From Oxalicibacterium solurbis (GTDB taxonomy: Bacteria > Pseudomonadota > Gammaproteobacteria > Burkholderiales > Burkholderiaceae_D), in assembly GCF_014635845.1 (NCBI RefSeq), contig NZ_BMDP01000001.1, forward strand, positions 1 through 64,000: a stretch of DNA of 64,000 nucleotides, given 5' to 3'. Shown piece by piece: positions 42,601-60,719 of this stretch. A program made the translations under genes and the position numbers. A model generated the notes under the pieces. It was not told the origin of the DNA, ran no database searches, and worked only from the letters and a program-made list of their open reading frames with translations. Positions within the stretch are counted from its first letter, which is position 1; the number at the start of each line of letters is the position of its first letter.

Positions 42601-44667
42601 ATGAGAGCGATCGTTCAGTTCGACAAGCGGTTCGTCTATGTCATGCCCCATGCCTCGGCCAGTTTTAGGATAAGTGATATCTGCTTGCATGGCTGCTGCA
42701 TTGCGTTCGCTGAACAAATCGACACTGGATTGGAGAGACTCATTTTTCCTCGCATCCGATAGCTGCATGGACCGATCTGCAGCCTCGTTCGTTGCATTAC
42801 GGGATAGAGGCGGCACATGATTCTGATGTGACGATGAACGTTTGTCGGGCTGCGATATTCCTTTCGATTCCGAAGCGGTGTTTGCATTTGCATCAGATCG
42901 GAACGATTGATCGTTTTCGATACCGGAAACGGCATCATCATTTCCATTGCGGGAAATTTCTGTCGTCTGCATTTCGCGTTCCAGTAAAACAGCCAATGCA
43001 AGCCGCCAGTATTCATGTTCCAGCACATCTTCAGCGTTTGCGTTTGCTTCCGCTTCTCCCTCTTCTTTTTTCTCTCCTGCAACGGTCCTTCCATCCATCG
43101 TGCCGATTGGCTGCATGGCAGCAGGCGCAATCGAATCCTTCTGCTCCCTGTCAGAAGACGTACCGGCTGACGTTGCCGATGCTTCTCTGGCAATTCGACC
43201 GAATAGCACTTCCTGCAAGACGCCTGATGCCGCCACCGGCAAGCGGGACATCTTCTCGCCGATCTCCCGCGACAGGGATTCTGCGTTGAGAACTGGATGA
43301 ACGATGTCTCTGTTCATCGCGTCGCTAGAACTCGCCGGTTGCCGCAATCGATTCGCCATCATCTTCACGTCCTGTCGAGCATGGCGGATCGCCGCGAACA
43401 ATGGAGCCGACGTCTTCAATGCATCCAGCACAGCCACGAATAGCGAAGCGATCAATCGTCGTTCAAGTATTCCGGACCATTCATCCGCATCCGGATCAAT
43501 GGTCCGTTCTGTCACGGATACGCCCATGCGCATATCGGGTCGCATGTTCGACACGGCTTTGTACAGGGCGCGCAGGAAATGTCCGGCTTGCGGTTGCAGC
43601 ACGCCGATCAGTTTGGCGAGCAAGGATGCAGGCAAGTTCTCTGCCATCTTTTCCGCTATCCCATGCCTGCCTGCAACGGCATGCAAGGCCGAGCGGATCG
43701 CATCGCCCTCGCCCTTCTCCAGCAGACGGGAAAGCGTCGCGGCATCGCCTGCCATGCATGCCTGTAACAATTGGCGATGCAAGATGTCGGCATTTGCCGT
43801 TGCCCTGTCGTCATGCGGCGATGCCGGAGCAGTTTGTTGCGGCATATCGCTTGTCGATGCCTGTGCCGCAACATCTGTCGCAATCTCTGCCGCAATGCCT
43901 TCCCGTTTTTCCGTGACAACCGCAATACCGACAGGCTCGGCTTCAATCCGGGCCGCAGCCATCAATGCATTTTGTACATCCCGCCCATCCAGCAGCGCAT
44001 CGATAGCCGCGCGCCAAAGCTGGAGGCGAAGCGCTTCTTTCGGTATCGGCGGCAGCGGCTTGCCGGGACGGCTCAACCTTCGATCAATTAGCGTGGCGAC
44101 ATCGACCTCCGGCTGCAAAATGTTCGCAAACCGCTGCAGCGACGACACCGGAAACTGCGCGACTAGCCGTGCAACGGCCTGCATTCTCTTCGCGGATAGC
44201 CGCAGCAAGGCATGCAATCCGGCCGGATTCGCATCCAGTACCTGATCCAGCAGGCGCTGATGGCTGCCGGCATCGGCAATGTCTTCCTGCACCGTCAGCA
44301 CGCCGTTGGTCAGGAAATCCGCCAGCCGTTCGATCGCGCGGCGCGCATGCGGTACCAGCGCGACCTCTCCCTTCTCGCCGCTGGCAAGCTGCGCCTGCCG
44401 ATGCTGCAGCAGGTCCGCCAGCTGGCGTTCGACGCGCCGCGTCATTTCCTCCTGAAAATCGTCGAGCGGAATATCGCCCAGATCGAGTTCGACTTGCGGC
44501 AGCACCAGCACACCGTCGCGATGGCTGTGCCTGTCCAGCACGGATGCGATGGCCGGCAGCAGTCTTGCCGACAGGTAGGAACGCCATTCGTCGTCGCGCG
44601 GACCAGCATCCGCGTCGAACGCGATATCGAGCACCATGTCGTCGATCACGTGGCTGGCCATGTTCAT
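39670..44667 (-). CDS. eCIS tape measure protein (CIS_TMP family, Afp14-like), very long
   Basis: A 1665-residue protein. The N-terminus (HVIDDMVLDIAFDADAG, then VLPQVELDLGDI) and the C-terminus (GMVLAAPYIPHLFSLLKL, KLLCGVKTGTPI, LRVSFLQRTGWL, LDRLPWSFSMIRHSWMP) match the contractile-injection-system tape measure family, whose length sets the tube length. Between them are at least three helical repeats, each ending in a similar block (ANILQPEVD, IGVLQPQAG, LMLLEPRAL), and a long Ser/Asn/Gln/Glu-rich stretch (about 550-760) likely disordered. The start is the ATG at 44667, which overlaps the upstream stop (ATGA). The size suggests a long particle. No membrane segments were seen. Confidence 0.88.
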   Translation of the reverse strand: MNMASHVIDDMVLDIAFDADAGPRDDEWRSYLSARLLPAIASVLDRHSHRDGVLVLPQVELDLGDIPLDDFQEEMTRRVERQLADLLQHRQAQLASGEKGEVALVPHARRAIERLADFLTNGVLTVQEDIADAGSHQRLLDQVLDANPAGLHALLRLSAKRMQAVARLVAQFPVSSLQRFANILQPEVDVATLIDRRLSRPGKPLPPIPKEALRLQLWRAAIDALLDGRDVQNALMAAARIEAEPVGIAVVTEKREGIAAEIATDVAAQASTSDMPQQTAPASPHDDRATANADILHRQLLQACMAGDAATLSRLLEKGEGDAIRSALHAVAGRHGIAEKMAENLPASLLAKLIGVLQPQAGHFLRALYKAVSNMRPDMRMGVSVTERTIDPDADEWSGILERRLIASLFVAVLDALKTSAPLFAAIRHARQDVKMMANRLRQPASSSDAMNRDIVHPVLNAESLSREIGEKMSRLPVAASGVLQEVLFGRIAREASATSAGTSSDREQKDSIAPAAMQPIGTMDGRTVAGEKKEEGEAEANANAEDVLEHEYWRLALAVLLEREMQTTEISRNGNDDAVSGIENDQSFRSDANANTASESKGISQPDKRSSSHQNHVPPLSRNATNEAADRSMQLSDARKNESLQSSVDLFSERNAAAMQADITYPKTGRGMGHDIDEPLVELNDRSHFAVQSPQSKTAEIASRNTSLQNEERQKMHLPDNRRQQSDAAGAIPNQPAEPLNAPDALADADDQHESPDIAVIVDSMMQIADAWQSEERISADAIEHAPDSSASVETETNLRHRLAKALLTGDAAGLQTDWRRLLQQQPELIAQAVRHYMQMAGVLERLVRGFPETMLTDLLMLLEPRALALLSEQQKRLHVLTETEGTAARKSLWEATWQQLPMATQTFDATTYANALKQRTDAILQDAIASVEQNNTSENATLEQAYRRTRQLHDALLGNVALTPQAVDDAGILQVDFPLLLRQLIRALRSEPPSVDRLAYDESLYAVLLPQAIADGGTTLTDMQTAFLDAIASHARHAVDRSAYYRGVLAALLRGEAVDLDALASQKARVSANMANDEGVATVEVKATKTGDAERKSQPGPVDMDAGNPSAESRHGTLVSDGKERIQQATHNHNASQPSRLYQTLAVSDDEETEALQKLILETATRFPEAMQTIWDALRTEKLPAPGKIFTREIWRSLLIAWMRNRFSASETESMLATLDNKAGVATRNNESCRLALLNMLQGHTAHTHSSEPQSSMPPAEARNDVQREQKEAPAWQATTLPALLAATENDIDAQRSLHHWLRTGLSDHAPAARAALRAALQDMRMAGVFAIAVPEALLAETLAAIDVRHASKRFRADWVEDSLFAIDGALSSSRLRTAKWQHLLHRAATGKGNSDDSEYASDLARHLIEATGSAHADALLAAIRQPMPAIPSPRTNVAGIDENSRRQTTASASAPFSFASDAASPLASGGTKARRTRTASSDDTQETEDDRRNRPEQEIHIPNAGMVLAAPYIPHLFSLLKLTEQGRFVDPKAAERAVHLLQFMVDERTATPEYQLVLNKLLCGVKTGTPIAAGIDITDHERETVESLLTGLIANWGALGSTSIDGLRVSFLQRTGWLRRQEDGWHLQVERRAYDMLLDRLPWSFSMIRHSWMPTLLRVDWR

Positions 44668-47171
44668 ACCCAGTAATCGCGTTCGGTCCGCACATGCCGG
44701 CGCAGGAAGGCACGCAATGCGGCGGAAGCGGTATCGATGGTCGCGTCGTCCTGCTGCGGCGAACGCAGAGCATGCAGCCAGCCATGCAGCCGCGATTCGA
44801 AATCGCACAGTTGCACATGGTCGAGCCAGTAGAACTCCGGCAGCAGGTGCGCCGGCGCGTTCATGCAGACGGTTTCCTCGGCCAGCTTGCGGAACTCACT
44901 GTCATGGAAGCGCGCAGTCCAGCCGGGGAACACGACGCTGATGCGATGCGTGAAGAAATCGCTGTCAGCTTCGGACAGGGATGCGTCGGCAGGTGCACCG
45001 CGCGGCCGCAGCAGAACGTGCTCCACGATATGCAATCCTTCGCTGGCGGCGTTCAGCGCGGTCAGTTCGCGGCTCATCTGCCAGGCGCAGCGTTTGGCTT
45101 TTTCGTAATCCGGCGCGGTTGCCAGCAGCCACGGCCTGGCGTCCCGGTGCGGCTTGAAGCAGACGGCGATGCGCTGCCCCTCCTCTGGAATCAGCACGTA
45201 ATTGCCGGTATCGATGCCGTGGCGAAAAACCGATTCGCCGAGCACGATGCCGTTGAATAGTGACGATGTCTCCTCGTTTTCCGCGAACGACGGATCGATG
45301 CGCGGAACCGGCCGCGCATCGCGGCTTTCGTTCAGCTGTTTGGTCGAGCGGTCGAACACCTTGTCCGGCAGCAGGCGCAGATTGCGCTGCTGCAGCACCT
45401 GGCCGAGCCGGCGGAAACGGCCGACTTCCTCGATGCCGAGCAGCACGCCAACCTTGCGCTGCAGGCCGGCGATGTTGTCGGACTCCCATGCGGGGCGCAG
45501 ATAGTCGAAGCCGGTCGCACGGCGCGCGCTGATATCGACGATGTTCTTCAGGAAGGCGAGTTTCTTTTCTGCCAGCCACCACGGCCGTTGCGCCTCGCTT
45601 TCATAGCTGAAGCGGTTCAGCGATTTCTGTGTGAACTGTTCGCCGTAGATCGCCAGCATGTAATCCAGCGCGCGACTGCGGCGGTCGGCCGCATTGTCAT
45701 GCTGGCGGCGCACGGCGGCCAGCGCTTCCGTGGTATGCGCACGATCCTGCGCATACAGCGCTTCGATGCCGGACAGGCTGTCGTTGCCGATGTATTGCGT
45801 GAAGTACGATTGCCGCATGCCGTCTTCGATCGAGAACATACGGCGCATTTCCTGCAGGTTCTGCAGGTAGTCGGCCATCAGCTGTTCCGGCAGATACAGA
45901 TAGGCTTTCAGCTGCGCGGCTTCGGCCTTGCGCCTTGCGGGAGCGGAATCCGGCACGCCGTGGCGATTGATGCCGTAGATCGCCGGGAAGTGATGCTGGA
46001 CCGAATAATAGTCGGCCAGATCGCGCCGCTGCCCTTCCGGCACAGGGATGAATTGCGAAAAGGTCTGTCGGCTGTTGCGGAAGGCGCGGAAGCCGAACTG
46101 CAGCTGCACCAGTTCGTCCCTGGCTTCGCTCAGCAGATCGGTCCGGCGTTCCTTGCGCAGCCGGCGAGCTTCGTCGTCTTCCGGCGCCAGCGCGGCACCG
46201 GCATTGCGGCCGAATACCAGATGCAGCAGATCCTGATCCGCATTGGCGGGAAACTGCAGGCGTGGACAGACGGAGGCGGACGGATCGAAGGACAGCGATT
46301 CCGCCGGCTGCCCCTGCGCATCGACCAGTCCGAGTTCATGCACTTGCCGCACACCGTCGATCTGCTGGATCAGGCCGATCAGATCGACCAGCGTCACCGT
46401 CCGCTGCGCGGACGAAATGCGCTCGTCGTCGATATGGCCGTGGCGCGTCAGCGGACCGAGAAACAGTTTGTCCAGATCGACGCCGGCGGCGAACACGTCT
46501 TCGTAACGATGCACGTAGAAACCGGACGAGATGCAGCGTTCGCAGGCGAAGAAGATACGCGCATAGACTTCGGCCGGATTGCAGAAGCCTTCGAGTTCGA
46601 TTTCGCCGGTCAGGAAATACGGCGCAGTATCGACGATGACGACGTCTTCCAGATCCTCGCCGAGGTTGCGGTGTGCAGAATAAGTTGCACGGATGCGCTG
46701 CCGCACTGCTTCGCGCTGGGCGTCGGAGGCTGGTTGCGTGAACGTTTCGTCCAGCAGCACGCGTAGCGTATACAGCCCGCGCGGACGTTTGCCGTCGGCC
46801 GGCAAGCGTTCCAGCCACAAATCGTCGATCTGCGGTACCGCGTCGTAGATGATCTTGCGGTAGTCGTTTTCGGTGATCGGCTGCACCGGCAGGATGTCTT
46901 CCGGCATGTACAGCCCCTGCGCCGCGTAATCGATGCGGCCGTCCGGCCCGGTCAGGTAGTCCTGCGGCTCGAAGCCGGAGCGATAGGCCAGATCGGTCAG
47001 GCCGTAGCACAGCTGTTCGAGGATGGTGACGCCGGGATCGTGCAGGTTGTAGTCGGTCCAGGTTTCGCCGCACAGCTGCTGCAGTAGTGCAATGCCGGTC
47101 GCGCGCAACGCATCGAAATCCAGTCCGTCGGAATCGGGCTGGCGTCGGGCGATGGTGCCGGCGTTCGTCAT
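44664..47171 (-). CDS. eCIS baseplate J-like protein 2 (Afp12-like)
   Basis: An 835-residue baseplate wedge protein. The N-terminal signature TDYNLHDPGVTILEQLCYGL, followed by LAYRSGF, is characteristic of Afp12-type proteins in CIS loci, and length fits (700-1000). In Afp/PVC this protein pairs with Afp11 to form the baseplate wedges around the spike. The chosen ATG at 47171 removes a 13-residue non-conserved leader. The stop overlaps the tape measure start by four bases, and the small gene at 47188 ends 16 bp upstream. No enzymatic motif is seen. Confidence 0.88.
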   Translation of the reverse strand: MTNAGTIARRQPDSDGLDFDALRATGIALLQQLCGETWTDYNLHDPGVTILEQLCYGLTDLAYRSGFEPQDYLTGPDGRIDYAAQGLYMPEDILPVQPITENDYRKIIYDAVPQIDDLWLERLPADGKRPRGLYTLRVLLDETFTQPASDAQREAVRQRIRATYSAHRNLGEDLEDVVIVDTAPYFLTGEIELEGFCNPAEVYARIFFACERCISSGFYVHRYEDVFAAGVDLDKLFLGPLTRHGHIDDERISSAQRTVTLVDLIGLIQQIDGVRQVHELGLVDAQGQPAESLSFDPSASVCPRLQFPANADQDLLHLVFGRNAGAALAPEDDEARRLRKERRTDLLSEARDELVQLQFGFRAFRNSRQTFSQFIPVPEGQRRDLADYYSVQHHFPAIYGINRHGVPDSAPARRKAEAAQLKAYLYLPEQLMADYLQNLQEMRRMFSIEDGMRQSYFTQYIGNDSLSGIEALYAQDRAHTTEALAAVRRQHDNAADRRSRALDYMLAIYGEQFTQKSLNRFSYESEAQRPWWLAEKKLAFLKNIVDISARRATGFDYLRPAWESDNIAGLQRKVGVLLGIEEVGRFRRLGQVLQQRNLRLLPDKVFDRSTKQLNESRDARPVPRIDPSFAENEETSSLFNGIVLGESVFRHGIDTGNYVLIPEEGQRIAVCFKPHRDARPWLLATAPDYEKAKRCAWQMSRELTALNAASEGLHIVEHVLLRPRGAPADASLSEADSDFFTHRISVVFPGWTARFHDSEFRKLAEETVCMNAPAHLLPEFYWLDHVQLCDFESRLHGWLHALRSPQQDDATIDTASAALRAFLRRHVRTERDYWV

Positions 47172-48274: not shown

Positions 48275-51200
48275 CTATTCTTCCGTTCCAATGATGAATG
48301 TGGTGCCGACTTCCAGCGCCGCGAGACCGGCCGCCTTCGGATCGCGCGGCAACAGATCGTCGCCGATCGCGATCGCGTGGCGCTGCAGCGGCACTGCGAT
48401 GCTCCACGGGTAATCGGGCGCGATGTCCCGGTTACGGCGCGCGCCGCCGGCCTTGTGCGCGGCGGTATCCAGCAGGCCGTAACGTTCGCCGCCATCCGGC
48501 GAGATGCGCAGCATCGAAAAGCCGGTGACGAATTCGACGTAATCCAGCCCGAGAATGAAGGCTTCGACGTCATGCTGGCGCACGCGCCAGCCGAAGTGCA
48601 CCGAATACCCGCCGCCGCCCCATGGCGACAGAAAGCGCGAAATGTCGCGGTTCAGCTGCTTGACGTAATAGCCGCCGCCGAAGCCTTTCTTGAACTTGAC
48701 GGTGCAGCGCACCTGCAGGTGTTCATAGACCGGATTGCGCACGTCGATCTGCGCCCATGGCGACGCGAGGCCGGCGACGTACTGCCGCACCTCGCCGATC
48801 AGGTGGCCGTCCAGCGTCGGCATGTGGCCGCTGCCGATGTCGGCCGGCAGCTGCGGCAGCGCGACGATCAGCACGTGGCCGGGCGCGATCCAGCGCTGCG
48901 GATCCGCATCCATCCGCATGTTCGCGAAACACTTGACCTTGTAGATCTCGGGGAATTTTTCGAGGATCAGCGTCTGGTAATCGTACGGCGAGACGGCGCG
49001 GTTCTTGTGGCGCAGGCGGCCGCTGATGCGCGTGCGCAGCTGTTCGCGCGTTTCCGCCGGTGCGCCGCCGAACGAGGCGACCGGCTGCACGATCCTGCCA
49101 AGGCCGGCAATGGTCTTGCGGCTGCGCTGGATCGCGCCGACCGGCAGCGGCGCATCGGAGGTCGAATAGCCATTGCCGCCGCCGTCTGAATCGCTGCCGC
49201 GCACACGGCTGACCTGCAGCCCGTTCGTATAGACCGCATACAGACTGCAGACCTTGTTCAGATCGTATTCGGCCGACAGCCTCAGCCAGTACAGGCCGCG
49301 CGGCATCACGGTGCCATCGTTGTCGATGTCCGGCGGCAGTTCGAGCGAGACGATGCCGGACACCATGAAGCCGTGCGTCGTATCGGACACCACGCGATTG
49401 CCGAATGGAATCCAGTGGTTGCCGGACAGGTAGGCCCAGTGCAGCGACGGTCCGGCCGGATTATCGCAAGGCAGCGAATCCGGATGCAGATGAAACAGCA
49501 GGCTCACGATCTGGCCGTCGGCGGTGCCGGACAGTCCGATGTACAGATTGCCGGAATCGTCGAAGTGCGGCAGCAGCGTCGCATGGCCGCGCCGCATGCC
49601 GGCCAGGCTTTCCCAGCCGAGCGGATGCAGGTGGAACATGCGGTCGCCCGTCACGTCGCGCCCGTTCGTGTGCGCCAGATCGAGATGCGCGAACGCCGTG
49701 TAGCTGAACGAAATCGCGTTGATCAATGGCGTGTACGGCGGATTGGGCAGCGGCTCGTGGCGCTTCAGTTTCTTCTCGACGGCGTTGCGCCCCAGCGCTT
49801 CGGCCAGCGCGACCGGATATTCCTTATGGCCGAATGCAAACTCCGGGCTGTTCAGCGTCAGCTTGAAGAAACCGTTTTTCGCCAGCGGACCGTAGGCGAA
49901 TGCGGCATCGGGCGGCACCTGGTCGGCCGGCCGCGCATGGTGGATCACCTGCGCGAACGACAGCGTACGCTGCGTGCGGATCGCTTCCAGATCGCGCTCG
50001 TCGTCCCAGCGGTCGAACAGCACGACGTCCGGCTGCCTGCGGATATCGGCCGGCAGCCATTTGCCGTCGGCCAGCACGCTGGCTGCGGCCGTCACCGCCG
50101 CGCCTTCCCTGTAGCCGTAGCCGGCATACCAGTCGCGAAATCCGCCGTGACCGGTCGGCAACCCGCCCCATTCGACCTCGATCTCGAAACTGCCGAGCCG
50201 CTTGCCGGCGGTTTCCGCGCTGCCGACGATGAAATACGAACCCAATGCCGGAATCGGACCGAACGGCTGGAACGGCGCTGCCGGTGACAGCTGGCCGACA
50301 TTGTTGAACAACGCCAGTTGCTTGCAGCCTTCGGCACCGACGTCGATCGCGATCTTGCGCAGCGGCAGGCGATCCAGCACGCCGTACGGATACATGTAGT
50401 CGGCGTGCAGTTGGAAGCGCACCATCGGCAGCGCGGTTTCGTAGCGTTCGCCGTGCACGGCCGGCACGTAGGGTGTGACCGCCGGCGCGTCGGCTGCCAG
50501 TTCGAAATCGATCACCAGGGTATGCGGCGCGCAGCGAATATCGAAATTGCGATCGACGCCCTGGCACAGCGGAATGTATTCGGTGACGGCATGCCAGCCC
50601 TGCTCGCAGGTGACGGCGACCGTGAACATGCGGCGGAACACACGGAAGAACGCATCCTCGATCGACACCTGCCGCTGTTCTGCATCCTGCTGTCTGCCAT
50701 TGATCGCTTCGGCCAGTGTCGCCACGCGTTGCGCGAACAGGTCTTCGCCGTTCGCGCCTTCCTCGAAGGACAGCGTGATGCGAATGCGGCGCTTGCCCTC
50801 GCGCAGCAGAAGCACCCGGCTGGCGATCGCGAAGCCCAGCCGCGCTTCCGGCAGGAACATCGCATCGCGCGCGGCTTTCGGCGCTCCCAGCAGCGGCTGC
50901 GGAAACAGCTTTTCCGGATCGGTGACGACTTCCGCAGGCACGTCGATGCTGTTCAGATAGCAGCCGGTGGCGTATTGCCGCTCCCTGTCGTCGTCTGCCG
51001 GTTCCTGCAGCGCATTCTCCGGTGCGCTGTTCGCATCGCGGTCGAAGTACAGCGTGTGCAGCGCTTTCACCTGCAGATCGCCGACCAGCAGCGGCGATTC
51101 GCTGGCGAAGACGATCTCGCGCTTGGTTGCATCCGGCCCCGCGCTGAACTCGGTGCCGGGCGCAATCGGGATGTCGCGCCCCGGCAGGCTGGGCTGCAGC

Positions 51201-52126
51201 ACCAGGCAGGCCTTGTCGGCGCGCGCCGGCCGCGGCTTCGCCAGCAGCACCTTGTCGTAGTAGAAATCCAGATGCCGATGCGTGAAGCGGTTCAGGCGTT
51301 CCTGCAAATGCGGATACAGTTGCGCAAAGGCGATCAGCATGCCGATCGATGGGTCGTGCCGCCGGTTGGCCAGCGATGCCGGCAGCAGACGCGCCGCGCC
51401 CTTCTGCAGCATGTCGATCGCTTTCAGGAAGGCATAGAAGTTGGTGCGGAACGAAAAGGCCATGCGGGCTTCGCCGCCCGTGCCATTTTTTCCGTTCGCC
51501 ACGCTGTCGCCACGCATGGCCGGATCGAACGCCATCATGGCCGGTTCGGCTTCCTGCGTTTGCGCTGCAGAGACATCGGCATCGGCCTCGCCGCATGCCT
51601 GCTGCAGCCGCTCGAACTCGCCCTGCAGCCGGCTCGCCATGCTGGACAGCAGGCCGTAGAGATCGCGTCCGGCCGGTGTCTGCGACGAGCGCAGCGCGGT
51701 GAACCAGCGATCGATCAGCGCGGCGAGCCTGTAGGCCGGCAGTTCGTCGAGTGCGACGTCGCGTGTCAGCCGGCGCGGATCGCTGCCGGTATCGCTCCAC
51801 ATCTGCTCGAAGGCGGCCGCGTAACCGTCCAGATCAATGGACAGGATGTCGGCGATGATCATCGTCTCGTCGGCGGAGAAATACGCTTCCCAGGTACCGT
51901 CGTCCCGGTTGCGTTCGTCGCGAAAGCGCACACCGGCCGCATAGCGGCTCATCATCGCCAGCAGATCGGTCAGCTTGGTCTCATCGACGTTGAAATAGCC
52001 GTCGCGCAGCGCCGGCTGTGCGCGCTGCTGCTGGCTGATGCCATCGCTGACGATGGGCCGCCTGATCGTGCCGGTGCGGCGTGACGAGCGGCTTGAGGCG
52101 TGGCGGGATACGGGATGCGCAGTCAT
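48275..52126 (-). CDS. eCIS baseplate J-like protein 1 (Afp11-like)
   Basis: A very large (1283-residue) baseplate protein. The middle and C-terminal parts show the Baseplate_J pattern (PAETREQLRTRISGRLRHKN, then RAVSPYDYQTLILEKFPEI, a hallmark of putative baseplate assembly proteins) and the end has the wedge domain VKFKKGFGGGYYVKQLNRD. The N-terminus contains a Ser/Arg-rich leader then TKLTDLLAMMSRYAAGVRF. The ATG at 52126 is preferred; a GTG at 52135 directly follows the gp25 stop and would add three residues. Afp11 proteins contact sheath and spike in the baseplate. Confidence 0.88.
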   Translation of the reverse strand: MTAHPVSRHASSRSSRRTGTIRRPIVSDGISQQQRAQPALRDGYFNVDETKLTDLLAMMSRYAAGVRFRDERNRDDGTWEAYFSADETMIIADILSIDLDGYAAAFEQMWSDTGSDPRRLTRDVALDELPAYRLAALIDRWFTALRSSQTPAGRDLYGLLSSMASRLQGEFERLQQACGEADADVSAAQTQEAEPAMMAFDPAMRGDSVANGKNGTGGEARMAFSFRTNFYAFLKAIDMLQKGAARLLPASLANRRHDPSIGMLIAFAQLYPHLQERLNRFTHRHLDFYYDKVLLAKPRPARADKACLVLQPSLPGRDIPIAPGTEFSAGPDATKREIVFASESPLLVGDLQVKALHTLYFDRDANSAPENALQEPADDDRERQYATGCYLNSIDVPAEVVTDPEKLFPQPLLGAPKAARDAMFLPEARLGFAIASRVLLLREGKRRIRITLSFEEGANGEDLFAQRVATLAEAINGRQQDAEQRQVSIEDAFFRVFRRMFTVAVTCEQGWHAVTEYIPLCQGVDRNFDIRCAPHTLVIDFELAADAPAVTPYVPAVHGERYETALPMVRFQLHADYMYPYGVLDRLPLRKIAIDVGAEGCKQLALFNNVGQLSPAAPFQPFGPIPALGSYFIVGSAETAGKRLGSFEIEVEWGGLPTGHGGFRDWYAGYGYREGAAVTAAASVLADGKWLPADIRRQPDVVLFDRWDDERDLEAIRTQRTLSFAQVIHHARPADQVPPDAAFAYGPLAKNGFFKLTLNSPEFAFGHKEYPVALAEALGRNAVEKKLKRHEPLPNPPYTPLINAISFSYTAFAHLDLAHTNGRDVTGDRMFHLHPLGWESLAGMRRGHATLLPHFDDSGNLYIGLSGTADGQIVSLLFHLHPDSLPCDNPAGPSLHWAYLSGNHWIPFGNRVVSDTTHGFMVSGIVSLELPPDIDNDGTVMPRGLYWLRLSAEYDLNKVCSLYAVYTNGLQVSRVRGSDSDGGGNGYSTSDAPLPVGAIQRSRKTIAGLGRIVQPVASFGGAPAETREQLRTRISGRLRHKNRAVSPYDYQTLILEKFPEIYKVKCFANMRMDADPQRWIAPGHVLIVALPQLPADIGSGHMPTLDGHLIGEVRQYVAGLASPWAQIDVRNPVYEHLQVRCTVKFKKGFGGGYYVKQLNRDISRFLSPWGGGGYSVHFGWRVRQHDVEAFILGLDYVEFVTGFSMLRISPDGGERYGLLDTAAHKAGGARRNRDIAPDYPWSIAVPLQRHAIAIGDDLLPRDPKAAGLAALEVGTTFIIGTEE

Positions 52127-52135
52127 GGGCGGCAC

Positions 52136-52567
52136 TCAACTCCGGACATGCGTGCCCTCCATGAAATAGAAGGGATAGACGATGTTGCTGCGCGTATTGG
52201 TCGAACGCACGCGATAGACGATGTCGATCGTCAGCAGCCCTTCCTCGATGCGGTCGTCGGCGATGTCGATGCGCTCGACGGTGATGCGCGGTTCGAAGAA
52301 CAGAATCGCGCGCTCGATCAGGTCGCGAATTTCGGTCAGCGTGCTTTCGGTGACGTTGTCGAACACCAGCGTCTTCAGGCCGCAGCCGTAGGCCGGCTGC
52401 ATCACGCGCTCGCCCGGTGCGGTGGACATCAGGATCAGCAGGCTTTCGCGAATGTCGTCCTCGCCCGACACCGTATCCAGCGCACCGCCGCCGTCGCGTC
52501 CGGTGTGCTTGTGGAAGCGCGGCGGGAAGCTCCAGCCGGTACCGAGGAAGGATTGATCGACTGCCAT
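52136..52567 (-). CDS. eCIS gp25-like baseplate protein (Afp9-like)
   Basis: A 143-residue protein with the gp25/W family pattern: LGTGWSFPPRF at the start, then EDDIRESLLILMSTAPGERV and QPAYGCGLKTLVFDN, the typical EPR-like region where the phage T4 gp25 motif lies. Gp25 homologues initiate sheath assembly on the baseplate in phages, T6SS and eCIS. The gene sits between PAAR (upstream, 12 bp) and J-like protein 1 (downstream). Size is normal. Confidence 0.92.
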   Translation of the reverse strand: MAVDQSFLGTGWSFPPRFHKHTGRDGGGALDTVSGEDDIRESLLILMSTAPGERVMQPAYGCGLKTLVFDNVTESTLTEIRDLIERAILFFEPRITVERIDIADDRIEEGLLTIDIVYRVRSTNTRSNIVYPFYFMEGTHVRS

Positions 52568-52899: not shown

Positions 52900-54693
52900 T
52901 CAGTTGATCATGACCATCGCGCCCTTGACCGTGGTCTGGCCGGACGCGGACAGTTCCGCCGACGCCGCGCCTTTGGCGACGAAGCCGACGTTGGCGTTGT
53001 TGTTGATGTTCAGCCCCTGGCTCTTGATGTCGGCCTGGGACGTACTTTCGATGTTGCCGGTGGCGGTGATCGTGACCTTGCCCTTGGCATTCATCACGAT
53101 GTCCTTCGCGCTATCGAGGTAGATGCCGTCCGGCTTCAGTTCCAGCGTGTTGCCGTTCTGGTCCGACAGCAGGATGGACTTGGCATCGTCGCTGATGACG
53201 ATCTTGTTGGCGGCCGGCGTGGTCAGCGTGATGATCTTCTTGTCGTCGTCGAATTCGCACTTGAGCATGCTGCGCGTGACGATCGCCTTGAAATTGTTTT
53301 CCGCCGCCGGTTCGTAGGCCGGCTTGCGGCTGCTGCTGTACAGGCTGCCGAGAATGACAGGATGCGACGGATCGTCGTTGAAGTAACCGAGCACGACTTC
53401 GTCGCCGATTTCCGGCAGGAAGAAGGAACCGAAACCGCTGGACGCATAGAAACCGGCCAGCCGCGCCCACACGCCGTCGGTCTCGGGCTGCATCACCGGC
53501 GTCGATACCTGGATCTTGTACTGCCCGTCCGGATCGGCATCGAGCTTCATCACGACACCGATCTGCAGGCCCTGCACACCCGGCGCGAGGCCGGCCGCCG
53601 GCGGCGCGATCACGTCGTCCTGCTGCTCGACGAACCAGCGGTGCGGCATGCCGAACTCGACTTCGGTGACCCAGTTGCCGTTTTCGATATCGTGGTTGAC
53701 GGCGCTGACGAAGACGTTGCCGCTGAAACGCGCGCCGACGCCCTTGATCTCGATCAGAGCGCCCGGCAGCGCCAGCGCGCTACCCTGGAATTTCATGCGG
53801 CCGCGGATGCGCGACAGCCCGGCCTTCAACTGCTGGCCATCGGCCCAGGCCTGCAGCGATCCGGTATCGAGCGGCACGGCAGTCTGCAGGTTGAAATTGG
53901 CGAGGCCGATCACGCCGGCCAGCGTCGCGCTGTCCAGATTGCCCTGTGCATTCAGCGTCTTCGGCGAAGCGGTCGTCTGCGCCACGGCCTGCGTGGACAG
54001 GTCCCATGTCGTGCCCTGCACCGACGTCAATTGCGTGCGCGCATCGATGTCGGCGTGGAACTCCATCAGATCCATGCCGTAGGTGACCGTCAGTACCGCC
54101 GAGCCGCTGACGGCTGGCGGCTGCACGGTGACCTTGGCGGCATCCACCGTCACCAGCATGCCGTTGACCTCGGCACGCGCGACCATGTAATCCCAGTCGG
54201 TGCAGTAGTACTGCACCAGTTCCTTGTGCTGCACCGAGGTCGCCGTCACATCGGCCGACAGGCCGCTGCAGTTGCCGATCAGCTTGCTGATGATGTCGCT
54301 GTCAAGCTGGTCGACGTAGTTGGCATTCTTGCGTCCTATCGTCATGCCGACCGCCTTGTCGCGGCATTCGACGATCAGGCGCGAATGGTTGGCGCCGGTG
54401 ATCTTGATGCTGTGGCGGATGATGACGCCTTCGAAAATCGACGTCTCGGTCGAGCCATAGCCAGCGCTGACGACAATGGCTGCGCCCGGCACGAAATCGG
54501 CGGCGTCGCTCTGCGGGAATTCGGCGTTCGGCATGTCGCCGTCGCGGATGACGATGCGCGCCATCGATACCTTGTTGACGCTCTTGTTGATGCTGACCGA
54601 TTCGATGCCGATGGTGGTCGCCAGCGGACTGCCGTTGCTGGTGATCGTCAGCTTGAGAACGTCGGAACTGCCGACTGCCGGGGAATCTGCCAT
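52900..54693 (-). CDS. eCIS VgrG-like spike protein (Afp8-like)
   Basis: A 597-residue spike. The N-terminal part is gp27-like (phage late control D type: VECRDKAVGMTIGRKNANY, and FEGVIIRHSIKI), the central OB-fold gp5/base V region contains GVMKLDADPDGQYKIQVSTP and LPEIGDEVVLGYFNDDPSHP, a strong signature shared with VgrG, and the end is a beta-helix of short repeats (about 470-597) for the needle. No C-terminal effector extension. Neighbours are PAAR downstream and the LysM protein upstream. Confidence 0.92.
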   Translation of the reverse strand: MADSPAVGSSDVLKLTITSNGSPLATTIGIESVSINKSVNKVSMARIVIRDGDMPNAEFPQSDAADFVPGAAIVVSAGYGSTETSIFEGVIIRHSIKITGANHSRLIVECRDKAVGMTIGRKNANYVDQLDSDIISKLIGNCSGLSADVTATSVQHKELVQYYCTDWDYMVARAEVNGMLVTVDAAKVTVQPPAVSGSAVLTVTYGMDLMEFHADIDARTQLTSVQGTTWDLSTQAVAQTTASPKTLNAQGNLDSATLAGVIGLANFNLQTAVPLDTGSLQAWADGQQLKAGLSRIRGRMKFQGSALALPGALIEIKGVGARFSGNVFVSAVNHDIENGNWVTEVEFGMPHRWFVEQQDDVIAPPAAGLAPGVQGLQIGVVMKLDADPDGQYKIQVSTPVMQPETDGVWARLAGFYASSGFGSFFLPEIGDEVVLGYFNDDPSHPVILGSLYSSSRKPAYEPAAENNFKAIVTRSMLKCEFDDDKKIITLTTPAANKIVISDDAKSILLSDQNGNTLELKPDGIYLDSAKDIVMNAKGKVTITATGNIESTSQADIKSQGLNINNNANVGFVAKGAASAELSASGQTTVKGAMVMIN

Positions 54694-54706: not shown

Positions 54707-55399
54707 TCACGCCAGCGGCGGAAAACGCAGCACCGTTCCCGGACGCAGGTCGCGGAAATTGGTGATGCCGTTGAGGCGTGCCACCTGCGGGTAGTAGCCG
54801 CTGTCCTTGTAGATGCGGTAGCACAGCAGCGGCAGCGTATCGCCGGCCTTGACCTCGACCAGGTGCGTCAGGTCCGGCGACGACGGATTGGCCTTCAGCA
54901 TCGCTTCCTGTTCGCTCATCCAGCCGACGAAGGTGATCTGCACCTTGGCGCGCAGCGGCGCACCGCTCGGCTTGAACAGCGTGTAGTCGACGCCGATCGA
55001 TTCGGCGCGGCAGAAGAAAATCAGGCTGCCCCACAGCAGGCGCACGTAGTTCGGCTCGTGGCTCTTGCCGACATACTTGTAGATGACGGTCATCAGCTTA
55101 TCGACCATCGTCTTGACGTCGCTCATGCCGATCAGCGAAACGACACCGGTGCCGTCGAGGATGATGTCCTGCAGCGTGACCTTTTCCGGACACATGCCGT
55201 TGAAACGCGGCGTGGCGCCGGCCTGGCCGATCGTTTTCTTCTTGTTGTATTCGATTGCACGCTGGTGCTTGTAGCTGGACGGATTGATCAAGACCTCGAA
55301 TGCCGTCTGCGAATTGTCGACCGCGATATTGCCGGCCTCGTCCACCGTGCAGGCGGAGATGGTCAGCTTCTTCTTCAGTCCGGTGCTGATTCCTGGCAT
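54707..55399 (-). CDS. eCIS LysM-containing baseplate hub protein (Afp7-like)
   Basis: A 230-residue protein with an N-terminal region (FEVLINPSSYKHQRAIEYNK) found in Afp7-type proteins and a C-terminal LysM-like motif (VEVKAGDTLPLLCYRIYKDSGYY, then LNGITNFRDLRPGTVLRFP). In phage and eCIS structures this protein links the inner tube to the spike hub. Its ATG overlaps the DUF5908 stop (TGATG), so the two are translationally coupled. Confidence 0.9.
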   Translation of the reverse strand: MPGISTGLKKKLTISACTVDEAGNIAVDNSQTAFEVLINPSSYKHQRAIEYNKKKTIGQAGATPRFNGMCPEKVTLQDIILDGTGVVSLIGMSDVKTMVDKLMTVIYKYVGKSHEPNYVRLLWGSLIFFCRAESIGVDYTLFKPSGAPLRAKVQITFVGWMSEQEAMLKANPSSPDLTHLVEVKAGDTLPLLCYRIYKDSGYYPQVARLNGITNFRDLRPGTVLRFPPLA

Positions 55400-55579: not shown

Positions 55580-56056
55580 TCAGATGAGCCGGTTGGAATA
55601 CGTGTAACTTAACGCGATCTTCTCGATCGCGACTTCGTTCTTGGTCGAGCCGAAGCCTTCCACTTCCCACTTGACGGGAAAGGCGTTGGCGAAGGTCCAG
55701 GCGCGGATCGGCACCTGGTTTTCATCCATCAGGTAGACGGCAATCGGCATCGGCACGATGGGCACGGCGAAATCCATCTCGAACACCGAACGGCACCAGA
55801 TCACCAGCGGCGACGTGGCCGACGCGATGCCGCGCTTGAGTTCCAGCAACGGATGCTTGACGGCCTTGGGCAACTGCAGCTGATAGCGGTTCTCGCCGCC
55901 TTCGGTGACGGTTTCGGTTTCCAGTTCCGAGGTGATGCCCGACACTTCCTGGAAGGAGGTGTCGGACATGCCCATCGTGGCGGAAAACACCACCTTGAAA
56001 TAGAAGGCGGACGGCGGATAGCCGCCCTTCCCGACCAGCGCGTTGGCGTCCGGCAT
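55580..56056 (-). CDS. eCIS inner tube protein 2 (Afp5-like)
   Basis: A 158-residue tube protein of the gp19/Hcp-like family (YFKVVFSATMGMSDTSFQEVSG, then PLLELKRGIASAT, and the last strand KWEVEGFGSTKNEVAIEKI). It differs from the adjacent tube protein and carries a short extra N-terminus (PDANALVGKGGYPPSAFYF). In Afp loci the second tube paralogue sits at the baseplate as initiator. Gap to the first tube gene is 34 bp. Confidence 0.9.
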   Translation of the reverse strand: MPDANALVGKGGYPPSAFYFKVVFSATMGMSDTSFQEVSGITSELETETVTEGGENRYQLQLPKAVKHPLLELKRGIASATSPLVIWCRSVFEMDFAVPIVPMPIAVYLMDENQVPIRAWTFANAFPVKWEVEGFGSTKNEVAIEKIALSYTYSNRLI

Positions 56057-56594: not shown

Positions 56595-58163
56595 TCAGGA
56601 CTTCTGCATCTGCTGCTGGAAGGTGATCTCGATGAATTCGGCCGGGCGGCTGATCGCGACCAGCACGGTCACGCGCAACATGCCTTCGAGGATGTCTTCC
56701 GGCGTCATCGTCTCGCCGAGGCCGACGAACACGGCGAACGCATCGTCCGGGCTGGCGCCGGCCAGGCCGCCGCGCTTCCAGATGCCGGTCAGGAAGTTGC
56801 GGATCATGCCCTTGATCGTGACCCAGGTGTTGGCCACGTTCGGCTCGAACACATAGGCCTTGGATGCCAGCTTGATCGATTCTTCCAGCATGATCATCGT
56901 GCGGCGCACGTTGATGTAGCGCCAGTCGAGGCTGTTGCCGTCCAGCGTGCGGGCGCCCCAGACCAGCGTGCCTTCGCCAATGAAAGTGCGGATCGCGTTG
57001 ATCGACTTGCCGGCGGTCGTCACGTTCAGGTCTTCCTGTTCGGCGTGCGTGATGTTGACGGTCGGGGCCGATACCGAATTCAGGCTGACGTTGGCCGGTG
57101 CCTTCCACACGCCGCGCTGGTTGTCGGTCGCCGTGTAGACGCCGGCCATGGCGGCGGCCGGCGGCAGCAGGTTCAGGCGGCGCTTGATGACGTCGAGGAT
57201 GACGTTGAACACCGGGCTGATCGCAACCAGTGTCTTGTTCAGGAAGATCTTCTTCGTCGCGACGACATCCGGCGTCAGCGACGCATCCTTGTCCCAGGCA
57301 TTGCCGATATCGGCGATCGCGTTGAAGGCAGCCACGCGCTTCGGGTCCTTCTTGTCGTCGTCGGTCAGCGCGTCGGCGAACTGCAGTTCGGTCTTCAGCA
57401 GCGCCTGCAGGTCCGGCAGGTTCGTGATGTTTTCGTAGCCGAGCGAGCGCTCCTGCACGATGGTCGTGTTGACCCACGGGTAGTAGGCCGCGCCAAAATC
57501 GAGGTTGTTGATGCCCAGCGCATCGCGGAATGCGTTGATGCAGTCGCCCGAAGGATCGGTACGCTCCTTGTAGCCGTCGTGGATGTCGAGGATCGCAAAA
57601 CGGTTGCGCATCGTCTCGCCGCAGTGGCGCAGCATCGCCTGCTGTACCGAGGTGCAGTTGTCCTTGTCGAGCAGCATGGCTTCAGGAATCACGACCATCG
57701 TCGGTTCCTGCTCCTTCTTCAGCAGATCGACACCGGCCGTCAGCTTTTCCGCATCGATATCGTCCGCATAGCTGCCGACGGAAACGATGTAGCACGGGCC
57801 GCCGCCGTTCTGGAAGAACAGCATCATGCTGTAGTACAACAGGTATTTGCCGGTATCCTGCGTCAGCATGTAAGGCTTGACTTCCTTCGGATTCGAGTTC
57901 GGTGTGACGAGGTCGAAATCCTTGTCGGTCTTGTCGTCCTTCGGCGCGATCGTGAACTGCGCGTGCGGTGCATAGCCGTAATAGCTGTGGAACTCGGCCA
58001 TCGACGAGATGCGCCACGGCTTGTTGGACAGCGAGGTTCCCTTGTTGTCCGCCATCTCGGTGTAACCGACGAAAGCCGGCACCGCGGTCGCCACCTCGAC
58101 CACGGAATTCGGGAATGCGTTCTTTTCAACGATATAGACGCCAGGCGTCTTGTATTGCCCCAT
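56595..58163 (-). CDS. eCIS contractile sheath protein
   Basis: A 522-residue tail sheath protein. The N-terminus GQYKTPGVYIVEKNAFPNS is typical (handshake strand), followed by ATAVPAFVGYTEMA, and the C-terminal domain has NAIRTFIGEGTLVWGARTLD, then DWRYINVRRTMIMLEESI and LRVTVLVAISRPAEFIEITF, the sheath C-terminal signature. Contraction of this sheath drives the tube. A GAGGAGG ribosome binding site precedes the ATG. Only one sheath gene is present; AFP has three. Confidence 0.95.
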   Translation of the reverse strand: MGQYKTPGVYIVEKNAFPNSVVEVATAVPAFVGYTEMADNKGTSLSNKPWRISSMAEFHSYYGYAPHAQFTIAPKDDKTDKDFDLVTPNSNPKEVKPYMLTQDTGKYLLYYSMMLFFQNGGGPCYIVSVGSYADDIDAEKLTAGVDLLKKEQEPTMVVIPEAMLLDKDNCTSVQQAMLRHCGETMRNRFAILDIHDGYKERTDPSGDCINAFRDALGINNLDFGAAYYPWVNTTIVQERSLGYENITNLPDLQALLKTELQFADALTDDDKKDPKRVAAFNAIADIGNAWDKDASLTPDVVATKKIFLNKTLVAISPVFNVILDVIKRRLNLLPPAAAMAGVYTATDNQRGVWKAPANVSLNSVSAPTVNITHAEQEDLNVTTAGKSINAIRTFIGEGTLVWGARTLDGNSLDWRYINVRRTMIMLEESIKLASKAYVFEPNVANTWVTIKGMIRNFLTGIWKRGGLAGASPDDAFAVFVGLGETMTPEDILEGMLRVTVLVAISRPAEFIEITFQQQMQKS

Positions 58164-58185: not shown

Positions 58186-59022
58186 TTAGCCGATATACAT
58201 TTCCGAGACCAGTGCTGCCTTGCCATCGATCGTTTCCATCCCGATGCGGTTGACCGATGCATTGGGCAGGCGCTTGACGACGACTTTTTCACCGAAGGTG
58301 CCGCGCTCCTTCAGTTGAAACCGCTGAGTGTGACGTTCCTGCATCGGGATCGCCTTGCCGGAACGGAACACGTGCGACGGCCGGCCGCGCAGGCGTTCGG
58401 TGCCGGCCTGCGTGAAATCTTCCCTGCCGTCCAGATCGACGATCGCCAGTTCGCGCGACGACAGATCGCCATCGATGTAGTACTTCCAGTAGCTGCTGCG
58501 GGCGGCGAATCGCAGCGAATAGTCGGCGACGTCCCGCAGATCGCCGTCGCCGACGGCGAACGTGACGACGAAAGCCGGCCGTGCCAGCAGGGCCGCGCGA
58601 TCGACGATGCCGGCCAATTCCGGCGATGCGACATCCTGCAGATCGCTCTCGCCCGCGCATTCCGCTGCATGCAGCCGGCCGCGGCCGTCTTCGCCAGGCA
58701 CGGCACGGCGGCTGTCGAAGACGAGCAGGCGCTGCGCATCGGCGACCGGCGCCGCCGTGTACTGGACGAAATGTGGATCGCTGCTGCAGGCGATGAAGGA
58801 CAGCGCAATGGCCTGCGCACCCGTTTCGCTGCGCAGGTCCGCCAGCCTGTCTTCGTCGCAGAAGATGCCGAGGCCGCCATCTGTGTTGCGGATCACCAGC
58901 TGGGCATTGCGGACGGCGCGTGCAGTCTGTCCTGCCGCCACGAAGCCGAGATGACGGCAAATGCCATCGGCGAAGAAATCGTGCGCGACGGCGAGTCGGA
59001 ACAGCGGTACATAGCTTCCCAT
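58186..59022 (-). CDS. conserved eCIS-associated protein of unknown function
   Basis: A 278-residue soluble protein. The N-terminus (SYVPLFRLAVAHDFFADG, then CRHLGFVAAGQTARAVRN) and the pattern SSDPHFVQYTAAP resemble an unnamed family I recall next to the DUF4255 gene in other eCIS loci. No signal, membrane segment or catalytic motif was recognised. It lies between the cap and sheath genes with gaps of 13 and 22 bp. A role in assembly is likely by position only. Confidence 0.7.
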   Translation of the reverse strand: MGSYVPLFRLAVAHDFFADGICRHLGFVAAGQTARAVRNAQLVIRNTDGGLGIFCDEDRLADLRSETGAQAIALSFIACSSDPHFVQYTAAPVADAQRLLVFDSRRAVPGEDGRGRLHAAECAGESDLQDVASPELAGIVDRAALLARPAFVVTFAVGDGDLRDVADYSLRFAARSSYWKYYIDGDLSSRELAIVDLDGREDFTQAGTERLRGRPSHVFRSGKAIPMQERHTQRFQLKERGTFGEKVVVKRLPNASVNRIGMETIDGKAALVSEMYIG

Positions 59023-59035
59023 TCGTGCCTCGCCG

Positions 59036-59608
59036 TCATTCCTGATGCGTCGCCACGCGCGGCGCGCGCAACGTCGGCACCTGATCGACAGCCATGGCGC
59101 TGTCGATCGTGATCATGCGGACCTTGTAGAGCACCGACGGCAGATACTTGCCGCTCAGCAGGCCCCAGACGTTGTTGAGGTCCTGGATCTTCAGGTTTTC
59201 CAGATCGAGGATCAGGCGTTCGATGCGCGGATCGAGGTCCGGCGTCGATTGATGGTCGAATACCGCCTGCCGCTGGAAAAAGGAGATCGCGCTGGAAATC
59301 AGCTTCAGCGCTTCGGGATAGCTGGTGCCGTTGAAATTGGCGGCGACCATCACGTACAGATTGAGGAACAGCGGCTGCGCGCCGACGGCGATACGCCCGC
59401 TACCGGCCTGGCTGGACTGATGCTGCGGCACCGTGTCCTTCTCGATGTTCGCCACCAGCATGACGAGCTTGTTGCTGACATTGGGAGCGACGCTGCCGTT
59501 CGGCTCGACGATGTTGGAGACGACGACGATATCCTCGGCCAGGCTGTATTCGCGTTTGAGCGACTGGTTCAACTGGCTGGCGAGATGGGCAAGGGCCGCA
59601 TTGATCAT
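59036..59608 (-). CDS. eCIS tail cap/terminator, DUF4255 (Afp16-like)
   Basis: A 190-residue DUF4255/Pvc16-type protein, first gene of the operon. The family N-terminus is INAALAHLASQLNQSLKR, then EDIVVVSNIVEPNGSVAP and NKLVMLVANIEKD, with LNLYVMVAANFNG in the core. Afp16 caps the tube and fixes its length. The ATG at 59608 is chosen because family members start at this point; a longer TTG start at 59632 has no ribosome binding site. Its 5' leader would be ~107 nt if the candidate promoter is right. Confidence 0.9.
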   Translation of the reverse strand: MINAALAHLASQLNQSLKREYSLAEDIVVVSNIVEPNGSVAPNVSNKLVMLVANIEKDTVPQHQSSQAGSGRIAVGAQPLFLNLYVMVAANFNGTSYPEALKLISSAISFFQRQAVFDHQSTPDLDPRIERLILDLENLKIQDLNNVWGLLSGKYLPSVLYKVRMITIDSAMAVDQVPTLRAPRVATHQE

Positions 59609-59721
59609 GCACATCCCATCGGCGTTGGACAAGCAGAAGAACAGCGACGTATGCGCTTTTCTGCCTCCAACCGAGCCGTATCCCTTGCCACCATGAAAGT
59701 TCCCCTGCCGAAACAGGTGAA

Positions 59722-59751
59722 GTTATACGGTCTCGTGCTGTCAGTCGTCAC
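59722..59751 (-). promoter_or_regulatory. candidate LuxR-dependent promoter of the eCIS operon
   Basis: On the minus strand TATAAC (59727-59722) can serve as -10. The -35 position, 18 bp upstream, is the poor hexamer GTGACG (59751-59746), which overlaps the edge of the lux box. A start site near 59715 would place the lux box centre near -44, the arrangement for LuxR-activated promoters. Consensus reading only. Confidence 0.5.
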
Positions 59752-59771
59752 CTGTCAAAAATGACAGGTGA
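59748..59771. promoter_or_regulatory. lux box (perfect palindrome)
   Basis: ACCTGTCAAAAATGACAGGT at 59750-59769 is a perfect 20-bp dyad, extended by TC/GA to 24 bp. It has the ACCTGN/NCAGGT ends and length of lux/tra boxes, to which quorum-sensing LuxR proteins bind. It lies between the eCIS operon and a divergent luxR-type gene. Extra half sites occur at 59738-59743 (CTGTCA) and 59713-59720 (ACAGGTGA). Confidence 0.8.
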
Positions 59772-59818
59772 TCTCTTGCGGATTCTGCGATAAAAAGGCG
59801 ATCTGGCCGAGGGGCTAT

Positions 59819-59834
59819 TCCCATGAATATGGGA
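59819..59834. repeat. 16-bp inverted repeat near the luxR-type gene
   Basis: TCCCAT-GAAT-ATGGGA, a perfect 6-bp dyad about 127 bp upstream of the luxR-type start. It may be an operator of another regulator. Unassigned. Confidence 0.35.
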
Positions 59835-59960
59835 TGTATATGATGTGACAACCTTACGATAATCGACGCAGTAAATTTCCCGTCGGAATGTTTAGGTTCT
59901 TTGAAATGATGAAAATCCCACGGGAAGCTACCGGTGCTCGGCATACCAACAGGACTGATC

Positions 59961-60719
59961 ATGGCACGCAATGATTCCGGTGCTCGCCTGTCCGATGTCG
60001 AGATCGCCGAAATTTCCAAGACCAGGCGCTGGGCCGACCTCACCTGCTCGCTCGAACGCTTACTACCGCGCTTCGGCTATTGCAGGTTCATGCAATTCAT
60101 TCTCTTCACACAGGCCGACGGCAAGATACTCAGCCATGCGCACGGTACGCTGGAACCTTCGTTTGACGTCATTTTTCGGGAAAGTTCCGCAAGCCGCCGA
60201 GATCCGAATTCCATTCATGCCAACGGCACCAATGTGCCCATCGAGTGGACAATCGAACAGATGTGCATCAAGGGAAACAGCCGGCTCTACGATGCATTGA
60301 TGAGCGCGGGCATTCATGGCGGCATCAGCATCTGCAGCCGCAGCGCACAGGCCGTCAGCCGCATCGACTTCTATCGCGAGAAGCCCGCAACCGCATCGAT
60401 GGCGGAACAGGCCGATCTGTTGATGCTGGCGTCTTATACGCATCAGTCGGCGGAATATCTGCTACGCCAGCAAGTGTGCGGCAAGGCTGTCGGTGACAAA
60501 ACTTCTGCTTCCGCACTGTCGGAACGCGAAGTCGAGTGCCTCGGCTGGAGTGCCAACGGCAAGACCAGCGCCGAGATCGGCATGATCCTCGGCATCTCGC
60601 AACGCACCGTCTATTTCCACCTGCGCAGCGTGTCGTCCAAGCTCGGCGTCTACGGCACACGACATGCGATCAGCAAGGCCGTGATGATGGGCATCGTCGC
60701 ACCACGCCATAACGCCTGA
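59961..60719 (+). CDS. LuxR-family quorum-sensing-type regulator, divergent from the eCIS operon
   Basis: A 252-residue regulator with an autoinducer-binding domain (about 20-165) and a C-terminal LuxR helix-turn-helix (about 186-243: LSEREVECLGWSANGKTSAE, then SQRTVYFHLRSVSSKLG). Against TraR numbering the ligand residues align without gaps: Asp70=Asp81, Pro71=Pro82 and Trp85=Trp96 are kept, but Trp57=Phe68 and Tyr61=Phe72. The HTH invariants Glu, Leu, Gly are at 190, 194 and 200. The ATG at 59961 has an AGGA site; a TTG/ATG at 59934 is less likely. No luxI-type synthase is in the window, so it is a LuxR solo here. It probably controls the eCIS operon through the lux box. Confidence 0.9.
   Translation: MARNDSGARLSDVEIAEISKTRRWADLTCSLERLLPRFGYCRFMQFILFTQADGKILSHAHGTLEPSFDVIFRESSASRRDPNSIHANGTNVPIEWTIEQMCIKGNSRLYDALMSAGIHGGISICSRSAQAVSRIDFYREKPATASMAEQADLLMLASYTHQSAEYLLRQQVCGKAVGDKTSASALSEREVECLGWSANGKTSAEIGMILGISQRTVYFHLRSVSSKLGVYGTRHAISKAVMMGIVAPRHNA

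Follow-up and report, generated by a model that had tools for sequence, protein, structure and literature searches.

A candidate lux-type operator between a LuxR solo gene and a divergent eCIS operon in Oxalicibacterium solurbis

The 64-kb stretch of Oxalicibacterium solurbis DNA analysed here (hereafter the window) carries a cluster of genes for sheath, tube, baseplate, spike, tape measure, ATPase and Pvc16-type proteins, which identifies it as that of an eCIS, a phage-tail-like injection particle. All identified eCIS genes lie on the minus strand. The first encodes a protein with a Pvc16 N-terminal domain (59036..59608; PF14065, 122.6 bits), for which the ATG at 59608 was chosen by inspection, and the second operon ORF (58186..59022) has no family match. 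A perfect inverted repeat with 10-bp arms, GATCGACAGCCATGGCGCTGTCGATC, is present inside the Pvc16-type gene at 59083-59108. Pfam searches assigned the remaining genes to a sheath protein (56595..58163; PF17482 and PF04984), a tail tube protein (55580..56056; PF06841), a CIS tube protein (54707..55399; PF19266, with a weak LysM match below cut-off), a VgrG-like spike (52900..54693), a gp25-like baseplate wedge (52136..52567; PF04965), a baseplate J-like protein (48275..52135; PF04865), a tape measure protein (39670..44808; PF19268, 365 bits) and an AAA ATPase (38280..39662; PF00004). The far end of the cluster is marked by a gene for an eCIS_core-domain protein (31472..34762; PF13699), which presumably is still reached by the operon transcript. 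This protein has 1,096 aa and is encoded in a low-GC stretch (~50%).

The start codon of the Pvc16-type gene (ATG 59608, minus strand) and that of a divergent luxR-family gene (ATG 59961, plus strand) enclose a 352-bp gap. It contains a dyad of lux-box form, TCACCTGTCA-AAAA-TGACAGGTGA, at 59748..59771 (core 59750-59769, assigned to no strand), and the eCIS genes lie downstream of it. The preliminary description had placed a 20-bp dyad of lux form between a LuxR-family gene and the divergent eCIS operon; the gene calls and Pfam matches agree with this, and its coordinates and letters are right. The core reads ACCTGTCAAAAATGACAGGT, with perfect arms and an asymmetric central AAAA, so that 16 of its 20 positions are symmetric. 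Two further pairs outside the core lengthen the arms from 8 to 10 bp, and the full dyad reads TC-ACCTGTCA-AAAA-TGACAGGT-GA (10+4+10). The dyad conforms to N2CT-N12-AGN2 over about 20 bp, the consensus that a passage of PMC9040856 gives for LuxR homologues, with the centre lying 38-45 bp upstream of transcription starts. It resembles the lux box at luxI of V. fischeri, given in a passage of PMC4444344 as ACCTGTAGGATCGTACAGGT, in being a 20-bp box whose outer twelve bases, ACCTGT...ACAGGT, are identical.

The length of the arms by itself is unremarkable, and what is remarkable is the form and place of the dyad. Perfect arms of at least 10 bp (spacer of at most 10) occur at five places in the window and in 8 of 2,000 dinucleotide-shuffled versions of the 352-bp gap, as would be expected if the dyad were a chance palindrome or a functionless remnant. 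We consider this extremely improbable, since a CT-N12-AG dyad with 8/8 pairs appeared in 0 of 1,000 shuffles of the gap, and the identity to a lux box, the location between luxR and the operon, and the spacing to a -10 hexamer make the joint chance very small. The pattern ACCTG-N10-CAGGT occurs once in the window, compared with 28 occurrences of CTG-N10-CAG. Across the 3.04-Mb genome, the exact 16-base pattern is a single copy. With up to 3 mismatches, 7 sites were found versus 5 for the reversed control; the runner-up, with 2 mismatches, falls within a 215-aa ORF, and the remaining five have 3 mismatches. These counts indicate one site, with no sign of a wider regulon in this genome.

On the eCIS side, a -10-like hexamer, TATAAC (59722..59727, minus strand), lies 22 nt from the box and would form the eCIS promoter. 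It is the only hexamer between the box and the eCIS start codon that passed our -10 filter, which required at least 4/6 matches with A at position 2 and a pyrimidine at position 6. For a transcription start 4-8 nt past this hexamer, the box centre is predicted at -41.5 to -45.5, which would nearly or fully fit the 38-45 bp consensus and agrees with the earlier proposal of a TATAAC -10 with the box centred near -44. The -35 had been called poor; it is weak, though not absent, as a -35-like GTGACG (4/6; 59746..59751, minus strand) stands at 18-nt spacing and overlaps the box edge by 2 bp. A sigma-70 consensus scan of 59560-60020 found no promoter. A gap of 22 nt is also what we counted between ACCTGTAGGATCGTACAGGT and TATAGT in a primer carrying a luxI-derived promoter, as printed in a passage of PMC3547951. 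The predicted layout supports placement of the box for class-II activation of the eCIS operon.

Two half sites accompany the dyad, as had been described, and they differ in weight. The 8-mer ACAGGTGA near the inferred eCIS start (59713..59720, plus strand) is a direct repeat of the right arm and is present in 1.1% of 2,000 shuffles. The other, CTGTCA (59738..59743, plus strand), is a weak half site that could be due to chance, since it arises in 15% of 2,000 shuffles. The two copies of ACAGGTGA, at 59713-59720 and 59764-59771, are 51 bp apart, or about five helical turns, and the first may offer a second contact for the regulator. Such a contact at the inferred start could allow LuxR on the box to repress the eCIS operon, or to silence it until ligand arrives, and a passage of PMC4444344 describes that LuxR can repress when its box lies between -35 and -10. 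We regard repression as quite improbable here: the box lies upstream of the -35 and overlaps it, rather than sitting between -35 and -10, and there is no strong -35, so no constitutive promoter worth repressing.

The luxR side of the box carries a possible extended -10, TGC-GATAAA (59786..59794, plus strand), whose hexamer is 19 nt from the box, and a second -10-like hexamer, TAAAAA, at a gap of 21 nt. They make autoregulation from the same box plausible, and the box may act on luxR in addition to the eCIS operon, or in place of it. The match scores are 4/6 on this side versus 5/6 on the eCIS side.

The luxR gene (59961..60719, plus strand) encodes a protein of 252 aa with the two domains of LuxR-type receptors, an autoinducer-binding domain and a C-terminal GerE HTH (58 bits), by which we would class it as a ligand-gated activator. 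The autoinducer-binding match is marginal (PF03472, 21.8 bits against a cut-off of 23, and 23.1 bits, above cut-off, in another search), and profile alignment is the basis of the fold assignment. Built from the window protein and 24 relatives (25 sequences), a profile aligns with LasR over almost its entire length (E 2.3e-49) and also matches RhlR, QscR, CviR, SdiA and TraR, and 24 of its 25 members match PF03472 at E 0.01. By this profile the regulator is homologous over nearly its full length to LuxR proteins of the LasR/RhlR/QscR/SdiA type. It is the sole PF03472 match found in the genome. Scanning genome contigs with a ten-LuxR alignment gave 169 relatives, and the best 80 of the 169 were taken on. 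Reading assigned 18 of these 80 (L131-L148) to the same subfamily; most others were HTH-only matches. In plasmids, tblastn returned 366 records with distant LuxRs (26-31% identity among the matches listed) and 6 with distant Pvc16, and no relative emerged from IMG/VR when the LuxR or the Pvc16 protein was used as a single query. In the 12 other genomes of the genus, the regulator gave HTH-region matches only (10) or none (2), and among the 13 genomes of the genus searched, the Pvc16 gene was found in the host genome only. This distribution suggests that the cluster and the regulator were acquired.

The nearest relatives found among 392 family genomes belong to Collimonas, Janthinobacterium sp. 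CG3, Massilia and Pseudoduganella. Those of the Collimonas genus (14 genomes, 7 named Collimonas and the rest placed in the same genus) are 40-43% identical over the full length and share the recognition helix SQRTVYFH. At one such locus (L105, 5747-10298), the luxR relative is preceded by histidine kinase and response regulator genes, and the three are divergent from an alpha-hydroxyketone autoinducer synthase gene (NF005526, 561.8 bits). Both upstream ORFs are arranged likewise in 8 of the 14 Collimonas-genus maps and were called differently in the others; the other copies are among L103-L116. The Collimonas-genus relative thus appears as a LuxR protein attached to an Lqs/Jqs-type system. 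Its gene differs from the window luxR in being last in its operon, with no box beside it and no eCIS genes nearby.

The box type itself recurs in other genomes. The exact 16-base motif is present on 41 IMG/VR contigs and lies directly between luxR and luxI on two of them, L222 (7081-8499) and L230 (4697-6116), whose luxI products score 65.6 and 61 bits with Autoind_synth. On the other 39 contigs, a search of the stretch examined gave no regulator relative at E 0.001. One ORF of L222 shows weak similarity to the gp25 protein of the eCIS (E 0.00024), which makes a prophage-borne quorum-sensing pair possible. In the Collimonas genus, the one-mismatch form AACTGTCAAGGTTGACAGGT stands between luxR and luxI in G060 (by coordinates) and in G908 (locus L255), where the luxI-like ORF was identified by eye alone. 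When up to 2 mismatches are allowed, the 14 genomes hold 128 motif copies (2 to 13 each), against 7 of the reversed pattern. The exact motif in two luxR-box-luxI pairs and this enrichment lead us to regard the window dyad, judged by its letters, as a genuine lux-type box.

The inner TGTCA-N4-TGACA is a generic shape, and FNR-type sites have the same 5-4-5 spacing. The dyad could on that ground be an operator for another regulator encoded elsewhere, for instance of the CRP/FNR type or a TetR/GntR-like protein. We find this improbable: the outer ACCTG...CAGGT is carried by the luxR-luxI pairs, a LuxR gene is adjacent, and the genome has a single close site where a global regulator should have many.

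Sixteen box loci of the Collimonas genus were fetched, and a -10 hexamer (at least 5/6) lies 21 nt from the box in nine of them, a gap comparable to the 22 nt in the window, and in at most three at any other gap between 0 and 79 nt; the nine represent two sequence types in related copies and do not count as nine independent cases. In these nine (L253, L256, L257, L260, L262-L266), the box and -10 are followed by a putative transcript of about 75-80 nt that ends in a GC stem and T run, and both sequence types have CU-rich stretches. An Rfam search of the L253, L256 and L263 transcripts gave no match. The nine loci look like small RNAs driven by a lux box. As a point against the adjacent LuxR as reader of the window box, none of the Collimonas-genus boxes lies near the genus's relative of the window regulator, and the protein that reads them may be the canonical LuxR of the luxR-luxI pair instead of that relative. 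Among the matches listed by a search that took in no more than six candidates from each genome, G976 (86% complete), a genome with boxes, shows no regulator relative. Conversely, G826 has 12 boxes and no LuxI match, and the only matches listed for it by that search are two copies of the regulator relative.

The recognition helix of the window regulator has an arginine, R215. LuxR proteins beside CTG-type boxes also carry arginine at this position, in SERTV (L222 and L230) or DRTV (the Collimonas-genus luxR-luxI pair), whereas beside CTA-type boxes the residue is A in L128 and L130, N in L140 and L143, and H in L142/L144, where the site is a half site only. R215 fits a CTG-type box, and the window pair obeys this arginine rule, which rests on few lineages, with L127 and L129 (dyads, no LuxR by text search) unscored. 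The relatives at L145-L148 have arginine and no dyad. In three subfamily lineages, AACTATCA dyads or half sites stand 93-188 bp upstream of the called luxR starts. A degenerate motif chosen after seeing the relatives would be circular as a test, so the CT-N12-AG shuffle test was used instead. By that test, upstream dyads stand out in 2 of 12 relatives (7 and 16 of 1,000 shuffles), and the L142/L144 half site is not above chance (290 and 300 of 1,000). Together, the arginine rule and the relatives' upstream sites favour the adjacent LuxR as the protein that would read the box.

The AACTATCA sites support autoregulation, and the three lineages have no eCIS genes in the stretch examined. With the -10-like hexamers at 19 and 21 nt, they could mean that the box serves mainly rightward autoregulation of luxR, from TGC-GATAAA or TAAAAA, and that the eCIS operon is regulated separately. 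As the main role this is unlikely: the eCIS side has the better -10, its gap is that of a luxI-type promoter, and TATAAC is the sole filter-passing hexamer on the way to the eCIS start. The two functions can, moreover, coexist.

We found no orthologue of the eCIS-luxR arrangement, and the window box consequently has no phylogenetic footprint. Of 24 further genomes that encode a Pvc16 homologue, 0/24 show an Autoind_bind match on the contig of that gene; from -400 to +80 of these Pvc16 loci, a CT-N12-AG dyad of at least 7 pairs was found in 0/24, and one locus has two of 6 pairs. Likewise, a search for six eCIS genes in the stretch examined around the 80 luxR relatives found none of the six at any of the 80 loci. 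In 5 of the 24 Pvc16 loci (L055, L056, L058-L060), a weakly similar LuxR-type HTH protein is encoded upstream (E 0.0009-0.0033). This fits the published association of GerE genes with eCIS loci, which adjoin 25.8% of them according to a passage of PMC8213781 that is repeated in PMC12961389.

A passage of PMC4414361 gives the pocket motif of AHL sensors as WYDPWG (W57, Y61, D70, P71, W85 and G113). Mapped through LasR from the profile and subfamily alignments, with W57, Y61 and G113 in TraR numbering, the regulator reads FFDPWR (F68, F72, D81, P82, W96, R134). The D, P and W shared with proteins of the LasR/RhlR/QscR/SdiA type are kept, whereas F68, F72 and R134 take the place of W57, Y61 and G113, so that 3 of the 6 AHL residues are replaced. 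F is found at position 72 in 17 of 18 subfamily rows, and R134, D136 and Y138 in 18 of 18. In the three LuxRs that belong to luxR-luxI pairs, W, Y, D, P and W are all conserved; G is kept only in the Collimonas-genus protein, and those of L222 and L230 have Y at this position.

A search for a LuxI-type synthase (PF00765) found none in the host genome and matched 12 of 17 other genomes, 11 of them over cut-off. It supplied the positive genomes for an earlier LuxI search that was uninformative, as its control matched 0 of 14 genomes. An orthologue of the alpha-hydroxyketone synthase (CqsA/LqsA type) was not found in the host genome either; the best match scores 78 bits at 26% identity, versus 923.6 bits for the query itself and 621.5 for G962. 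The FFDPWR pocket and the lack of a detected synthase of either kind argue that the regulator is a LuxR solo and probably not an AHL sensor. It is a solo by the definition in the part of PMC4414361 cited above. Strict quorum sensing by a self-made AHL was rejected, as no LuxI was found and the WYDPWG motif is not kept. The preliminary description had proposed quorum sensing or another diffusible signal; quorum sensing is unsupported for the same reasons, and a small-molecule signal is the probable trigger of particle production. More tentatively, and with somewhat less than even confidence, we suggest a non-AHL solo, from a subfamily found in the Collimonas alpha-hydroxyketone operon, that was captured as an eCIS switch and would respond to a foreign or host-derived small molecule (eavesdropping) rather than to the cell's own quorum.

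The luxR gene of V. fischeri is divergent, as the regulator gene is here; unlike in V. fischeri, no luxI was found, the target is an eCIS operon and the pocket residues of the regulator differ. A parallel is offered by LuxRs described in a passage of PMC4414361, which lack LuxI, have a substituted WYDPWG motif (TYDQCS or TYDQYI) and each activate one operon. The window LuxR shares the lack of LuxI and the substitution and differs in the residues, FFDPWR, and in the eCIS target. For eCIS clusters, SCO4263, a LuxR-type gene, is reported in a passage of PMC8505568 to regulate the particle genes of Streptomyces coelicolor. Both SCO4263 and the GerE-eCIS regulators of PMC8213781 resemble the present case in having a LuxR-type HTH gene beside an eCIS cluster, and the relevant passages, unlike our locus, mention no autoinducer domain and no lux box. 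The earlier remark that signal control is rarely shown for eCIS needs qualifying in the light of these passages, with GerE genes beside a quarter of loci and SCO4263 reported as a regulator. A literature search, with most subscription papers outside its reach, returned no report of a lux box or of an autoinducer-domain LuxR solo controlling an eCIS. The parts appear to be known and their pairing new, namely a lux box and a LuxR solo at an eCIS, with a candidate operator defined at the level of bases.

From what can be read in the DNA (the box, its uniqueness, the promoter spacing, the regulator family and the lack of a detected synthase), we infer, and hold to be likely, that the dyad is the operator of the adjacent LuxR solo, whose ligand-dependent dimer would activate the eCIS operon and probably its own gene too. 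The dimer would be folded or activated by a small ligand not made with the cell's own LuxI, would bind at 59748-59771, and would recruit RNA polymerase to the TATAAC promoter, which has no good -35, to transcribe the eCIS operon. The same box would probably drive luxR (59961-60719) through the weaker promoter on its other side. As the genome holds no other close match to the box and no other detected protein with an autoinducer-type domain, the pair has the look of a dedicated switch of one regulator and one site, which would couple particle production to an outside or metabolic signal. The LuxR solos of this subfamily are marked by an xFDPWR pocket and by the signatures RIDFY and VYGTRHAISRA. 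The signals that turn on eCIS particles are described as unknown in passages of PMC8213781 and PMC12961389. With a candidate operator, regulator and promoter defined to the base, the trigger of this eCIS may be searched for with a simple reporter.
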